Under the pieces are notes generated by a model. It saw only the letters and a program-made list of their open reading frames with translations, ran no database searches and was not told the origin of the DNA. Source: Streptomyces noursei ATCC 11455 (lineage in GTDB: Bacteria; Actinomycetota; Actinomycetes; Streptomycetales; Streptomycetaceae). From it: 64,000 nucleotides of DNA. The translations under genes and the position numbers were made by a program. This document shows, piece after piece, positions 39,046 through 44,780 of the stretch (the first letter of the stretch is position 1; each line of letters starts with the position of its first letter). Where the stretch lies: NCBI RefSeq assembly GCF_001704275.1, contig NZ_CP011533.1, positions 5,890,001-5,954,000 on the forward strand, read 5' to 3'.

Positions 39046-39741
39046 TCAGCCGCCCGTCAGCGCGGTGTCCGCGGTGTGCACGGCGGGCTCCTGGTGCGGG
39101 CGGGCGGTCTCCTGGTCGGCGCCGAGCGCGCCGCGGGCGGCGCGCACACAGGCCCACAACAGCACGTCGGGCCCCGGCAGCCAGGGGTCGCGGACGTCCG
39201 GCGCCACCAGCCAGCGGGAACCGGTGGACGCCGCGGGGTCGCCCGGCTCGGCGCCCTCGGCGGGGTGTCCGACCGCCCGCCCGCGCCCGGCGCCCGCGGC
39301 CCGCGCCGTCCCCGGGCGGGCGGTGGCGGGACGGGGGTGCAGCGGTGGCACCGTCACCGCGTCCCCGCTGCCGTGACACAGCAGGTGCGGCACCGCGCTG
39401 CCCCACTCCTCCCAGGCCAGCAGCGCGGGCAGCCGCTGCGCGGTGCCGGGGGAGGCGAAGAGCAGGATCCGGCCCCGGTGGGTGGCCACCGGACCCGACC
39501 CGGGCCCGGCCGACCACAGGCGGTCCACCATGCGCCGGCCGAAGAGCGCCGGGGCGTTGATCACGTCGAAGACCGCCCCGCACGGCAGCACGCTCGGCGC
39601 CGTGGGCCGCTCCGCCCACAGCATGTGCATCCCCTCCGGGTGCGGGCTGGCGGAGGCGAGCCAGTCGGCCCCGGCGAGGGTCACGTACGCCGTGGTCGGG
39701 AAGGCCAGGTTCCGGGGAGTCTCAGGCAGCCAGTCGCTCAT
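39046..39741 (-). CDS. Prim-Pol-like small protein (bifunctional primase/polymerase annotation)
   Basis: A 231-residue soluble protein. The N-terminal TTAYVTLAGADWLASASPHPEG, PTAPSVLPCGAVFDVINAP and GRILLFASPGTAQRLPALL segments match Streptomyces proteins annotated as bifunctional DNA primase/polymerase, a weak relationship, since catalytic Asp residues of true Prim-Pol are not evident to me. It shares a PC-x-V core with the protein at 47534-47986. A palindrome lies about 105 bp upstream of ATG 39741. True primase activity is doubtful. Confidence 0.6.
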   Translation of the reverse strand: MSDWLPETPRNLAFPTTAYVTLAGADWLASASPHPEGMHMLWAERPTAPSVLPCGAVFDVINAPALFGRRMVDRLWSAGPGSGPVATHRGRILLFASPGTAQRLPALLAWEEWGSAVPHLLCHGSGDAVTVPPLHPRPATARPGTARAAGAGRGRAVGHPAEGAEPGDPAASTGSRWLVAPDVRDPWLPGPDVLLWACVRAARGALGADQETARPHQEPAVHTADTALTGG

Positions 39742-40014: not shown

Positions 40015-40398
40015 TCAGTCGATGTCCGGCGGCACGGTGCTGCCGCTGCGCATCAGGCTCTGGCCGAACTCGACCATCTTCTGCGCGTAGTCCTCGGTCC
40101 AGTCGGCCCGCTCGGCGACCTCCGCGAGCGGCAGCCGGTCGAAGCGACGGGGGTCGGTCAGCTGCGCGGCGGCCATCGCCTGGAACTCCGTCGCGCGGTC
40201 CGCCGCCGCCCGGAAGGCGATGGTGAGTTCGGTCGCGCGGGCGAGCAGGGCGCCGGGGTCCTCCATCGACTCCAGCCCGAAGAAGTGCTCGGGATCGGCG
40301 GTGGCCTCGGGCGGCTCGAACAGCAGCTGCGCGGGTTTCATGCGGCGGGGGGCGGGCGCCGTACCGCGGGGATCGGGAGCCGACTGCGGCTCGGACAT
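40015..40398 (-). CDS. Conserved small soluble protein, unknown
   Basis: A 127-residue acidic protein with GGAGG before ATG 40398. The N-terminal 30 residues are disordered and Pro-rich; the rest is helical (MEDPGALLARATELTIAFRAA, LPLAEVAERADWTEDYAQKMVEFG). No transmembrane segment or known motif. GC3 and the ribosome site support expression. It ends 55 bp after... and stands alone between the Prim-Pol-like gene and the helicase module. Confidence 0.65.
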   Translation of the reverse strand: MSEPQSAPDPRGTAPAPRRMKPAQLLFEPPEATADPEHFFGLESMEDPGALLARATELTIAFRAAADRATEFQAMAAAQLTDPRRFDRLPLAEVAERADWTEDYAQKMVEFGQSLMRSGSTVPPDID

Positions 40399-40486
40399 GT
40401 ACCTACCTCCATCGTTGTCTGCCGCATTCCATTGTCCCGCTCCGCGCAAGGGGGCCCGGAGCCGCGGTGCGCGGGACGATCACGCC

Positions 40487-40671
40487 CGCCAGGCCACCCG
40501 GTGTTCCGCGAGATGGGCGAGGACCGCGTGGTTGGCCTCCCAGCCGTCCGGGGCGGTAACTCCGGGCCGCCTCCGGCGGCGTGCCGGACTCCGTCCGGTC
40601 AAGGGCGCCAGGCCACCCGGTGTTCCGCGAGATGGGCGAGGACCGCGTGGTTGGCCTCCCAGCCGTCCGGG
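40487..40671. repeat. 66-bp perfect direct duplication of the helicase gene 3' end
   Basis: 40487-40552 and 40606-40671 are identical over 66 bases, offset by 119. The right copy is the real last 21 or so codons of the helicase gene (PDGWEANHAVLAHLAEHRVA); the left copy lies just beyond its stop in the same orientation. Confidence 0.92.
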
Positions 40672-41957
40672 AACTTCACGGTGACGCCGAGTTGGACCGG
40701 TTCCGTGGCGGGGTGTTCGTCCAGCAGCTCGGTGACGCCGGCGCGGCAGACGACGATGCAGGCGTGCCGGTGCCGGGAGGCGAGCACGCACAGGCGGCCG
40801 GTCTCCAGGTGGAAGGCGGTCGCGTCGGGGCGGCCGGAGAGCGGGTGGAGGACGACGGTGACGTCGAACTCGCGGCCCTGGAGGCGGTTGGCGGTGTCCA
40901 CCGTGACACCGGTCACGCCCAGCCCGGCGAGGGCGGCGCGGACCGCCGCGGCCTGGTCGCGGTGGGCGGTGCTGACCGCGATCCGGGCGGCCGTCAGCGG
41001 CTCCGGGGCGCCTGCGTGCTCGCTGGTGGCGGCCCCGCCGCGGTCCAGCAGCCGGCGGACGACCCCGGCGACGGCGCGGACCGCCTCCGGGTCCGTCCGC
41101 GGGGTGTGCCGGGCGGGCAGCTCCAGCAGGCCCCAGCCGGACTCCGCGGCCTCGTCCAGCACGCGGTCCACGGCCGAGCCGTCGCCGCGCACGCCGAACG
41201 CCAGCCGCCGGTCGCCGGGGCCGGTGCCGCTGCGGAACGGCGTGTACGGGTAGAAGGCGCCGGAGACGAGGGGAGCGGCGGAGGCCGGCAGGCGCCAGGA
41301 GACGGGGAGCCGGTGCTGCGGCAGGTCGGGGTTGTGGGCGAGGAGGGTGGCGACGGCGCTGGCGGAGGGGTCGTAGGAGAGGCCGGCCCACTGGTCGGCG
41401 CCGACGACGCTGAAGGGGTCCAGCTGGCCCGGGTCGCCGACGAACAGTGCCCGCTCGAAGAGGCCGGCGACGCTCAGCAGCGCGTCCGAGCGCATCTGGT
41501 ACGCCTCGTCCACGATGGCGTGCCGCCAGGGCTCCTCGACCTTGGTGTAGGCCCACTTGGCGGCGGTGGAGACGACGACGTCCAGGGCGGTGAGGTCGGC
41601 GATCCTGGCGGAGGTGCGGACGGCGGGGAGGTCCGCGAGGGCCGGGTCGAAGGCGCCGGGCTCGCTGCTGTGCAGGCGGCCGACGGGGAGTTCGGGGTCC
41701 TTCGCGGCGAGCCGCAGCACGAGGTCGTCGACCTGGGCGTTGGTCTGCGCGACGATCATCAACCGGCGGCCCGCGGCGGCCAGTTCGCGGGCGGCGCGGA
41801 CCACCAGGGTGGACTTCCCGGCGCCCGGCGGGGAGTCGACGACCACGCCGCGCCGGGGGCTGTGCAGGGTGTCGTGGAGGATCGCTTCGGTGGCCTTCGC
41901 CGCCGCCGCGGCGGGGTCGACCGGCGGCGGGACGGGCAGGGGCTGAGGGGGCGTCAT
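40599..41957 (-). CDS. SF1B (Upf1/Dna2-like) helicase
   Basis: A 452-residue ATPase with the full SF1B set: motif I PPGAGKST (Lys48), Ia IVAQTNAQVDDL, II IVDEAYQ (Asp150-Glu151, DEA-Q type), III GDPGQLDP, IV LPVSWRLP, V VTVDTANRLQGREFDVTVVL, VI ASRHRHACIVV. DEA-Q plus the motif V/VI pattern fits 5'-3' helicases of the Upf1/Dna2 class rather than UvrD. ATG 41957 follows GGAGAG. It is third in a leftward set with the unknown protein and a RecB/Cas4-type nuclease. Confidence 0.85.
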   Translation of the reverse strand: MTPPQPLPVPPPVDPAAAAAKATEAILHDTLHSPRRGVVVDSPPGAGKSTLVVRAARELAAAGRRLMIVAQTNAQVDDLVLRLAAKDPELPVGRLHSSEPGAFDPALADLPAVRTSARIADLTALDVVVSTAAKWAYTKVEEPWRHAIVDEAYQMRSDALLSVAGLFERALFVGDPGQLDPFSVVGADQWAGLSYDPSASAVATLLAHNPDLPQHRLPVSWRLPASAAPLVSGAFYPYTPFRSGTGPGDRRLAFGVRGDGSAVDRVLDEAAESGWGLLELPARHTPRTDPEAVRAVAGVVRRLLDRGGAATSEHAGAPEPLTAARIAVSTAHRDQAAAVRAALAGLGVTGVTVDTANRLQGREFDVTVVLHPLSGRPDATAFHLETGRLCVLASRHRHACIVVCRAGVTELLDEHPATEPVQLGVTVKFPDGWEANHAVLAHLAEHRVAWRP

Positions 41958-42039
41958 GCCGGGGCGCTCTCCGGGGGGTGGGCGGGCGTCGGGCGGTGGC
42001 CGCGCGGCGCCGGGGCCGGACGGCGGCGGGGCGATCCGG

Positions 42040-43599
42040 TCACAGGAAGTCCTCAAGGGTCACCGGGTCGGGCGCGGCGGGCGGCGCGTCGCCGGGGCCG
42101 GACGGCGGGCCGCCGTGCGTCCACGGGGTGTCCTCCGGCTCCGGCAGGCCCGGGCCGCCGCGCGGGGCGTGCTCGAAGAGCGTCCAGCAGGTCGTCTCGC
42201 CGGGCTCCGGGACCGAGCCCGGCTCGGGAGTGCGGCCGCGTCCCATCCCGCCGGTGAGCCGGAACACCGGCGCGCCCTCGGCGTCCTCGGGGCCCGCGGC
42301 GTACGCGACGAACTCGGCGGTCTGGGTGCGGCCGTCGGCCAGCGGGCGGTGGACCTTGACGCCCTCGGACAGCGGGGGGCGGTCGTCGGTGTGCAGCGTC
42401 ACCAGGGGGCGCGGCATCGGCCGCCGGCCCTCGGAGAACGCCATCTCGACGGCGGTGACCGTGCCGTACAGCGCCTCGCCGGCCAGCCGCCGGGCGGCCA
42501 TCACCAGCGGGTCGTCCAGGGCTTCCTGGGCGTCCAGTTGGGCCTGCGCGGCCTCCCGGGCGGCGAGCTTCCGGGCGGCGGTGACCGCGTCGTCCTGTTT
42601 GGGCTGCGGCGGCTCCCCGGCCCGGATCCGGTCGCGGTGGGCGGTGTACGACCAGCGGTCGCGCTTCCAGCGGTCGGCGACCCGGGCGCCCTCGGGAAGG
42701 CCGCGGAGCAGGTCGATACCCTGCCAGACGGCGTCCCAGGTGGGCCGCAGCTGGCTCTCGACGAGGGCGCGCAGGGCCTCCTCGGCGCCGGGCAGACCGG
42801 CGTCGTAGCCGGCCATCGCGGGCGCCAGCAGCCGGTTGTCGAACGCCGGGTCGGTGGCGGGACCGGCCGGCGGGCAGCGCAGTTGGCCGTCCGCGTCGCG
42901 CGCCGCCTCGGCGTACTCGGCCGCCCGCGGGGCCGGTACGCCGGGCGGCGGGGCGATCCAGGCGAGCAGCGCGCCCAGGTGCTGGTCCTCCAGGACGCTC
43001 TGGCCGGTCGCCCAGTGACGGGTCAGCAGGCCCGTCATGGACAGCAGCAGACCGGCGCCGGGCACCCGGGCCCGCTCGCCGAGGTGCGTGAACCAGCGGC
43101 CCAGCAGCGGGACGTGCGGCGGCGCGGGGTGCGGCGTCTCCGGCTCCTGCTCGGCCGTCCGCCGGAACCGCATGGAGCGGCCCAGCAGCCGGACGTAGTC
43201 GATGCCGGCCGCGCTGGGCACGATCACCTGTGGCGCGTCGGTGCACAGTTCGACCTGCACCGGGACCTTCTGGCCGGTCTCCGCGTCGGTCTCCTTGCGC
43301 TCCTCGAATTCGACGTCGTCGGCGAAGCCGTCCACATAGGGCAGCACCGCCTCGGCGAGGTCGGCGAGGAACCCGAACCGCAGGTCGCGGTCGCGGGGCT
43401 GGGGGACCGTCAGCAGCAGCGGCTTCTCCCGGTCCGTGCCGACCAGGGCACCCAGCGGGGCGCCGGCCTCACCGGCGGTGGTCAACGGCACCAGGACCAG
43501 CGGGCGTTCGGCGAGGTGGCGGTGGCGGACCGTGGTCAGCGGCTGGGCGCGGCCCGCGGCCACCGCCTCCATCCGGGCCAGCGTCTCGATCAGCGACAT
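42040..43599 (-). CDS. Unknown 519-residue protein between nuclease and helicase
   Basis: A soluble, acidic, Pro/Ala-rich protein with no recognised domain. Distinct parts are an N-terminal alpha/beta region (1-170, with RFGFLADLAEAVLPYVDGFADD), a central helical part with HLGALLAWIAPPPGVP and RLLAPAMAGYDAG, and a C-terminal region (about 380-480) with TLHTDDRPPLSEGVKVHRPLADG that looks like a small beta barrel. It overlaps the nuclease gene by 10 bases and lies 82 bp before the helicase. The linkage suggests a subunit that loads or regulates the other two. Confidence 0.7.
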   Translation of the reverse strand: MSLIETLARMEAVAAGRAQPLTTVRHRHLAERPLVLVPLTTAGEAGAPLGALVGTDREKPLLLTVPQPRDRDLRFGFLADLAEAVLPYVDGFADDVEFEERKETDAETGQKVPVQVELCTDAPQVIVPSAAGIDYVRLLGRSMRFRRTAEQEPETPHPAPPHVPLLGRWFTHLGERARVPGAGLLLSMTGLLTRHWATGQSVLEDQHLGALLAWIAPPPGVPAPRAAEYAEAARDADGQLRCPPAGPATDPAFDNRLLAPAMAGYDAGLPGAEEALRALVESQLRPTWDAVWQGIDLLRGLPEGARVADRWKRDRWSYTAHRDRIRAGEPPQPKQDDAVTAARKLAAREAAQAQLDAQEALDDPLVMAARRLAGEALYGTVTAVEMAFSEGRRPMPRPLVTLHTDDRPPLSEGVKVHRPLADGRTQTAEFVAYAAGPEDAEGAPVFRLTGGMGRGRTPEPGSVPEPGETTCWTLFEHAPRGGPGLPEPEDTPWTHGGPPSGPGDAPPAAPDPVTLEDFL

Positions 43600-44780
43600 G
43601 TGTCCTCTCCCTGACGGGGCGTGCGGCCGGAGAGCGCCGCGGCGCGCAGTGCGGCGGCGGTGCGGAGGGCCTGCACGGCCGGGTCGTCGGGGTCCGCCTC
43701 CGGTGCGCCGCCGGCCGCCGCCAGCGCCTCCTCGATGGTGCGCAGTCCGCCCAACTCGCCCCGCAGGCCGCGGCCCAGGCTCTCCACCGCGCCGTCCTGG
43801 CGGGACCGCCGGCGGCAGTGGAAGGCCAGTTCGCAGGCGGCCAGGCACTCCGGGGCGTAGGCGGCGGTGACCGTCTCCACCGCCTCGGCCAGTTCTGCGG
43901 CCGGGCGGGTCGGGGTCTGGCCGTCGTCGGCCAGCCGCAGGTCGAAGGTGGTCCCGGCGGGCAGCGCGGCGGCGATCTCCTCGACGCGGGTGAGCCGGGC
44001 CAACTGGCGCCGGGTGGTGGCGCGTTGCTTGCGGACGTCGACGGCGGCGGCCGTCGGGAGGTTGGAGAAGTCCTTGGGGCAGACCAGCAGCGCCCGGTCG
44101 CGGACCCGGGCGGGGCGGCCGGTGTGCGCCGCGGTGTGCTCCGCCACCGCCTCCAGGGCGAGGACGTACACGGCGGCCTGCCGGGCCGCGGCGCCGACCT
44201 TGGCGGCGTCCGCGGTCCCGTCGATCATCGGGAAGGACTTGATCTCGACGACCGTCCAGCTGCCGTCCGGGTGCACCACCACCGCGTCCGGCTCCACGTA
44301 GGCGGGGGAGCCGGCGACCTCCATGGCCAGCAGGGGGTGGTCCAGCAGCGCCCAGCCGCCGGCCGCGGTCGCCTCGCGCAGCGCCAGCGCGGTGCGCGCC
44401 GCCCGGCCCTCGGGGCCGGCCGCGGACAGGTCGGGCCGGGCGACCGCGCCGTCCTCCGGCACCGCCGTGCCCGGCGCGAGCCGCTCGCACACCAGCCGCA
44501 GCAGCTCCAGGCCGCCGTCGGCCTTCACCCGGGCCTCGAAGGAGTTGCCGCGGACCAGGGCGAACTGGGACTGGCCGTACGCCGCGGGCGAGCCCAGCGC
44601 GCGGGCCAGCGCGCCCTTGTCGACGCCGGCGCCGTCCAGCAGCGCCCGGCGCCGGCAGCCGGGGTTGGCGGCGAGCGCGGCGAGCGCGCGGGCGTCCAGC
44701 GAGCGGGGGCGCACGCCGGGTCCGCGCAGCTCGGTCAACTGCTTCCGCAGGCTCGGTCGGCTTTCGCGGGAAACGTTCAC
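43590..44780 (-). CDS. RecB/Cas4-type PD-(D/E)XK nuclease, probable iron-sulfur protein
   Basis: A 396-residue protein. Nuclease core: RGNSFEARV (77-85), EPDAVVV (Asp165), VVEIKSF (Glu179, Lys181), then RQAAVYVLAL (Gln201-x3-Tyr205, the RecB-family QhxxY motif). A Cys in NPGCRRRALL (Cys42) before the core, plus ECLAACELAFHC (Cys312, 316, 322) after it, matches the cluster layout of Dna2/Cas4/AddB nucleases, except that the first spacing is CxxxC instead of CxxC. It starts the operon. Likely single-strand nuclease acting with the SF1B helicase. Confidence 0.8.
   Translation of the reverse strand: MNVSRESRPSLRKQLTELRGPGVRPRSLDARALAALAANPGCRRRALLDGAGVDKGALARALGSPAAYGQSQFALVRGNSFEARVKADGGLELLRLVCERLAPGTAVPEDGAVARPDLSAAGPEGRAARTALALREATAAGGWALLDHPLLAMEVAGSPAYVEPDAVVVHPDGSWTVVEIKSFPMIDGTADAAKVGAAARQAAVYVLALEAVAEHTAAHTGRPARVRDRALLVCPKDFSNLPTAAAVDVRKQRATTRRQLARLTRVEEIAAALPAGTTFDLRLADDGQTPTRPAAELAEAVETVTAAYAPECLAACELAFHCRRRSRQDGAVESLGRGLRGELGGLRTIEEALAAAGGAPEADPDDPAVQALRTAAALRAAALSGRTPRQGEDTCR

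Follow-up and report, generated by a model that had tools for sequence, protein, structure and literature searches.

What kind of machine is encoded by a predicted nuclease, a protein of no known family and a helicase when their genes stand in a row on a Streptomyces chromosome, and does it serve repair or defence? The three genes, here called NUC, MID and HEL, lie at 44780-40599 on the minus strand of the Streptomyces noursei ATCC 11455 chromosome. All positions are those of the window, the whole stretch of 64,000 nucleotides that was analysed.

Gene layout and the helicase

NUC (43590-44780, minus strand) starts with GTG and encodes 396 amino acids, predicted from motifs and conservation to be a RecB/Cas4-like Fe-S nuclease. 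MID (42040-43599, minus strand) encodes 519 amino acids and starts inside NUC: the NUC stop and the MID start overlap by 10 nt (43590-43599, minus strand). HEL (40599-41957, minus strand) encodes 452 amino acids from the ATG at 41957, which is the most likely start and is separated from MID by 82 nt; the alternative start, a TTG at 42056, would overlap MID.

Motifs, Pfam and PDB profiles place HEL among the SF1 helicases of the Upf1/IGHMBP2/Dna2 class. The sequences GAGKS, DEAYQM, GDPGQL, VSWR and QGRE are found, and motifs I, II, III and VI are all present. The Pfam families AAA_11 (44.3 bits against a cut-off of 27) and AAA_12 (31.5 against 27) are matched, as is AAA_30, and the score for UvrD-helicase (11.5 bits) is below the cut-off of 23. 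In the PDB, the HEL profile matches SMUBP-2 (IGHMBP2) at 2.7e-12 and DNA2 at about 5e-12, both ahead of Upf1. Against PADLOC there are weak matches only, to Mokosh helicases, the best being MkoA with 28.2 bits. The P-loop begins at residue 45, so the N-terminal accessory domains seen in Dna2 and Upf1 are probably missing from HEL. A first-pass annotation of this DNA had listed the three genes with their motifs; the NUC residues, the DEA-Q, GDPxQL and QGxE patterns of HEL and the overlap between MID and NUC were all reproduced.

Distribution of the trio

Of 296 Actinomycetes genomes sampled, the same 48 carry all three genes. Counted one at a time, NUC is found in 48 genomes, HEL (at E <= 1e-20) in 48 and MID in 49; the 49th MID match (G217; E 7.8e-5, 71 residues, with an internal stop) looks like chance. 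The genes adjoin in all but three genomes: in G095 and G196 HEL stands apart, by about 36 and 49 kb, and in G152 there is a contig break. The trio is one heritable unit. Its co-conservation across actinobacteria, which the first-pass annotation named as a check, is borne out by co-occurrence in 48 of 48 genomes; the contrary outcome, in which homologues occur apart from one another, was looked for and is absent.

At the level of the phylum MID was found in 9 of 198 sampled genomes, all inside the class Actinomycetes. In the sample of the order it is present in 89 of 99 genomes, including 82 of 84 Streptomyces, and the two Streptomyces genomes that lack it are small (5.8 and 4.8 Mb). The names of homologues include Micromonospora, Plantactinospora, Frankia, Parafrankia, Pseudofrankia, Actinomadura and Planomonospora.

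For the copy typical of Streptomyces we studied a core set, the best 80 of 497 confirmed Streptomyces-type loci, one of them titled Streptosporangium. NUC is found in 79, MID in 80 and HEL in 79 of these best 80 loci. The set includes short contigs, so some flanks are partial. With several loci cut by contig ends, the same flanking genes recur: a histidine-phosphatase-like gene (73/80), a TPR gene (73/80), a 127-amino-acid gene (74/80), a Prim-Pol-like gene (66/80) and a GGDEF/EAL gene (59/80). The core copy thus sits at one syntenic site in Streptomyces. SbcCD, Wadjet and pPIWI-RE neighbours, sought with 14 query families, were found at none of the best 80 core loci. Further, none of 41 pattern matches in viral contigs was confirmed as a relative.

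Since the recurring flanks indicate that the core copy is kept vertically, a housekeeping role is favoured for it. It had been suggested earlier that ordinary chromosomal flanks favour repair, and this fits the syntenic core copy; the argument does not carry over to the paralogous trios, which adjoin SbcCD, Wadjet and pPIWI-RE.

The candidate nuclease and the middle protein

The order of active-site motifs D...(D/E)xK...QxxxY is present in NUC: D165, in E163-P-D165, is followed by E179xK181, in E179-I-K181, and by Q201xxxY205. One cysteine lies before this core (C42) and three lie after it (C312/C316/C322). The stretch from EPD to EIK, residues 163-181, is encoded at 44238-44294, the codon of C42, a candidate N-terminal Fe-S ligand in an NPGC motif, at 44655-44657, and the C-x3-C-x5-C cluster at 43815-43847, all on the minus strand. 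Across 23 diverse aligned homologues there is no variation in EPD, Y205, C312, C316 or C322, and conservation is at least 90% at C42, E179, K181 and Q201, so that the four cysteines singled out in the first-pass annotation hold up well. E-[IV]-K is found in 77 of 79 core NUC proteins, the other two being fragments at contig edges, and C-x3-C-x5-C is kept in every NUC compared across core and paralog loci, among those listed. The NUC of locus L122 has no NPxC match because of an unknown base at that place.

Profile searches with NUC gave no family above cut-off in Pfam, NCBIfam or PADLOC (0 matches in the last), nothing useful in PHROGs, and no significant match to RecB-like families. PDDEXK_1 matches 5 of the 23 homologues, weakly (best E 0.014). 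In the PDB no nuclease was matched; the matches under E 0.001 are two designed helical-repeat proteins only, covering residues of about 18-91, and we judge them to be inflated by repeats because single stretches score E of about 7.

When NUC was aligned with hhalign to known or putative nucleases, the motifs fell in exact register with one Cas4, with RecB-like proteins and with PprPDDEXK, the nuclease of pPIWI-RE islands, at scores that are not significant; the last alignment also matched the N-terminal cysteine. The register was two residues off with the Cas4 set and absent with an AdnAB-like protein. Block shuffles scored as high in 1 of 48 and 3 of 48 cases, and in 2, 9 and 4 of 60. The RecB-like set had seven sequences, including a wrongly extracted piece of 35 amino acids (L191). 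As the profile scores are not significant, the assignment of NUC as a nuclease rests on motif order and conservation, from which we infer a nuclease fold and an Fe-S cluster.

Of 7996 candidates scored, 3433 are homologues of MID at E <= 0.001. A TPWTHGG stretch near its C-terminus (residues 491-497) is invariant among the aligned homologues. No family above cut-off was found for MID in Pfam, NCBIfam or PADLOC (0 matches in PADLOC), its profile has no match in the PDB, and no MID was found in phages.

Mobile copies and their partners

Other copies of the trio are preceded by an additional gene of 281 amino acids, UP281, located before NUC. In the 40 UP281 loci examined the partner is SbcCD in 21, pPIWI-RE in 10 and neither in 9, these nine being all outside Streptomyces. 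At the SbcCD loci SbcD and SbcC are placed divergently beside UP281, and in 8 of the 21 there are also Wadjet genes, of type I or II, downstream of HEL. UP281 is present in 20 of 246 Streptomyces genomes, always with the trio. In the class sample it is found in 15 of 296 genomes: 13 matches are strong and each adjoins a trio, and two weaker ones (G087, G269) lie away from trios. The weaker relative in G087 is at 290877-291515 of contig C44, in a genome without the trio.

The first paralog set consisted of 24 UP281 loci from Streptomyces, plasmids and one other family (L126). SbcD lies beside UP281 in 16 of them, 15 of which also have SbcC, and is missing in the other 8. These 8 have PprPDDEXK, PprRE and PprDinG without exception, and PprPIWI in 6 of 8 within the stretch fetched, that is, a pPIWI-RE island. 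After HEL, Wadjet I genes follow in 3 and Wadjet II genes in 4 of the 16 SbcD loci. Two Streptomyces plasmids carry UP281 and the trio with the genes of Wadjet type I after them (DUF3375, DUF4194 and one resembling SbcC/MukB), and one of these plasmids also has intact SbcC and SbcD divergently beside UP281.

The two groups among these 24 loci were defined by their neighbours, and 11 later loci, found via MID only, therefore give a fairer test. Five were SbcCD-like by their NUC: all five have SbcD and SbcC, one of them with Wadjet I. Two were pPIWI-RE-like by their NUC and both have all four pPIWI-RE genes, while the four that resemble neither branch have neither partner. The best-matching NUC type predicted the neighbour in 7 of 7 later loci. 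Chance proximity of SbcCD and defence genes was considered and rejected: the counts are 0/80 in the core set against 16/24 and 15/24 in the paralog set, where the groups were neighbour-defined, and 7/7 in the later loci.

Two further observations concern the SbcCD loci. In four of them (L169-L172) TnsB- and TniB-like transposase genes lie beyond SbcC, which suggests that these modules are carried by a Tn7-like element. L136 (2318 upstream) and L159 have a broken or truncated SbcC/SbcD next to open frames for UP281 and the trio.

Motif loss and co-inheritance

The paralogous loci carry one gene set, inherited together, in which the partner has been swapped and, in one branch, the catalytic motif of NUC has been lost. 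EPD and E-I-K are kept in the NUC of all 21 SbcCD loci (16/16 first, 5/5 later). At the pPIWI-RE loci the motif is degenerate in 10 of 10 (8/8 first, 2/2 later) and the cysteines are kept. The degenerate form is LIR in six of the first eight and in both later loci; in L167 and L168 EPD is changed to APQ or IPQ, and K to R. L128, which has neither partner, reads A-I-K. The HEL motifs look intact in the members checked, including three of the pPIWI-RE branch; in L171, which belongs to the SbcCD branch, the QGRE pattern was unmatched.

In the pPIWI-RE branch PprPDDEXK occupies the place that SbcD has in the other branch. The simplest account of the sequences would be that PprPDDEXK, the island's PD-(D/E)XK nuclease, took over cutting from the motif-less NUC, which would then remain as a structural Fe-S subunit.

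In a tree of NUC the SbcCD loci form one clade (support 95/93) and the pPIWI-RE loci another (100/100). A quick tree of HEL agrees on both with one exception, L124, which is placed within the SbcCD group. The placement of the motif-less branch differs: it is with the Streptomyces core copies in the HEL tree, and with L128, on long branches, in the NUC tree. SbcD distances correlate with those of NUC, MID and HEL at r 0.982-0.987 (NUC 0.987; 13 loci), and none of 5000 permutations gave a correlation as high. The SbcD of the modules is about 28-32% identical to the sole SbcD found elsewhere in the S. noursei genome, at 1.377 Mb and far from the trio.

Proposed function and alternatives

We think it on balance probable that the trio is a three-subunit helicase-nuclease for processing DNA ends, whose core copy would serve genome maintenance and whose mobile copies would degrade invader DNA. 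HEL, an SF1 motor by its motifs, would unwind from a DNA end and, by analogy with its helicase family, would do so in the 5'-3' direction. NUC would cut the strand freed by unwinding, using a RecB-like active site which, judging from the motifs, may be held by a four-cysteine Fe-S cluster. Given the strict co-conservation of the trio, MID would be an obligate scaffold or DNA-binding subunit that couples the two; it could supply DNA binding, as HEL is short. In the mobile branch, which adds UP281, a dedicated SbcD and SbcC would open blocked or hairpin ends; this branch is often next to Wadjet, which linearises circular plasmids, and SbcCD and the trio would then degrade the product. In this scheme it is predicted that the three proteins form a complex, that unwinding has the stated direction and that the work is shared with SbcCD and Wadjet as described. 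A module for DNA-end processing or defence had been proposed at the first reading of this DNA, and the co-occurrence of the genes and the conserved cysteines count in its favour.

Because the mobile relatives adjoin anti-plasmid and anti-phage systems, the data suggest a machine, usable in more than one setting, that processes or destroys DNA ends. More tentatively, this could be a modular DNA-destruction machine of Actinomycetes: a maintenance core of three subunits that mobile elements may have redeployed in two ways, as a cassette of six genes (SbcD-SbcC-UP281-NUC-MID-HEL) downstream of Wadjet, or as the engine of pPIWI-RE, where NUC is catalytically dead and another nuclease replaces it. 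On this reading DNA-end repair would be linked directly to defence against plasmids or phages.

The core trio might instead be a defence system against plasmids or phages, fixed by now in Streptomyces, rather than a repair enzyme. In its favour, the paralogs are associated with Wadjet, with pPIWI-RE, with TnsB/TniB-like transposase genes and with plasmids, and the weak PADLOC matches of HEL are to Mokosh helicases, but we consider it unlikely: defence genes are usually patchy in distribution, while the core trio is present at a single syntenic site in nearly all Streptomyces genomes and has no defence neighbour in the best 80 of 497 loci (14 query families).

The position of the SbcCD-branch copies raises a second alternative, that they maintain the ends of linear replicons instead of attacking invaders. 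The distance to the contig end is 4.7 kb for one copy (G576, a contig of 8.27 Mb) and 15 kb for another (G727); a third lies on a linear plasmid of 300 kb, about 12 kb from its end, and in G536 and G610 matching SbcCD-trio cassettes are found at both contig ends, 24 kb in (the end-located cassettes of G536, G610 and G576 are loci L157 and L171-L177). However, Streptomyces chromosome arms collect foreign genes anyway, the copy in G591 is about 523 kb from the end, and other copies are mostly on short contigs and hence unplaceable. The UP281-free trio also occurs in families that are not known for linear chromosomes. We therefore regard end maintenance as rather improbable, and a telomere function as the general role was rejected, as UP281-free trios lie mid-chromosome. 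The pPIWI-RE copies in large contigs (n=3; G304, G658, G675) are more than 1 Mb inside.

It is very improbable that the trio acts on RNA, as an Upf1-like RNA helicase with a nuclease partner: the HEL relatives Upf1 and IGHMBP2 do act on RNA, but DNA2 scores equally, DNA is the substrate of both SbcCD and Wadjet, its partners, and the known members of the nuclease motif class of NUC are DNA-specific.

Relation to known systems

Returning to the preferred reading, a DNA-end-processing helicase-nuclease, one of the closest comparisons is with the Dna2 of eukaryotes and archaea, which likewise combines an Upf1-class SF1 helicase with a RecB-like nuclease whose four cysteines are split around the catalytic core. 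In Dna2 these are one chain; here there are three, with MID as an obligate extra and no significant profile match for the nuclease, and NUC and HEL are separate genes both at the S. noursei locus and in the Actinomycetes class sample. The cysteine spacing is C-x2-C-x5-C in Dna2, AddB and Cas4, and C-x3-C-x5-C in NUC. The earlier idea of a dissociated Dna2 counterpart agrees with HEL, which has IGHMBP2 and DNA2 as its nearest solved relatives, and falls short for NUC, which has no significant RecB-like profile match. "Split Dna2" is a fair analogy for the trio, as distinct from a statement of ancestry.

The same combination of activities is known from nuclease-helicase fusions of the TM0106 type (TIGR03491). 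The trio was rejected as a form of this fusion: NUC does not match TIGR03491, and that model has no match above cut-off in 31 relatives. AddAB, AdnAB and RecBCD are helicase-nucleases for DNA ends, and AddB carries an Fe-S nuclease; they differ in that HEL matches AAA_11/AAA_12, with UvrD-helicase below cut-off, and in that the trio subunits are separate. The motor and nuclease of archaeal HerA-NurA are genetically linked with Mre11/Rad50, whereas the trio has an SF1 helicase and a RecB-like nuclease and was found here only in Actinomycetes. Wadjet and pPIWI-RE are neighbours of the paralogous trios, but the trio is absent from the PADLOC component lists of both.

The available part of PMC3702460 describes pPIWI-RE as a set of three genes only (REase, DinG and pPIWI-RE), and SbcCD as an end-processing Rad50 complex. 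The term Dna2 is absent from the available parts of PMC12624138, PMC10853773 and PMC12839542, and SbcC and Wadjet from those of the latter two. In the open-access literature (subscription journals and preprints lie outside it) no paper was found that describes the trio or links it with SbcCD or Wadjet. The trio is real and conserved, with no description found in the literature searched.

If the proposed function is right, nearly every Streptomyces has an uncharacterised helicase-nuclease with an obligate subunit of no known family, and its mobile versions show a DNA-end-processing engine paired with Mre11-Rad50 and with DNA-cutting defence systems. It would also give an answer, open to testing, to the question of what becomes of a plasmid once Wadjet has cut it. 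Further, the natural series of active and dead NUC versions would separate the catalytic from the structural roles of the Fe-S cluster.

Two minor features lie downstream of HEL in S. noursei. The Prim-Pol-like gene (39046-39741, minus strand) matches PF09250 with 26.2 bits, against a cut-off of 22.8, and the 127-amino-acid gene (40015-40398, minus strand) has no Pfam match. The last 22 or so codons of HEL are repeated just past its stop: 40477-40552 and 40596-40671 are 95% identical over 76 nt, a leftover 3' duplication.
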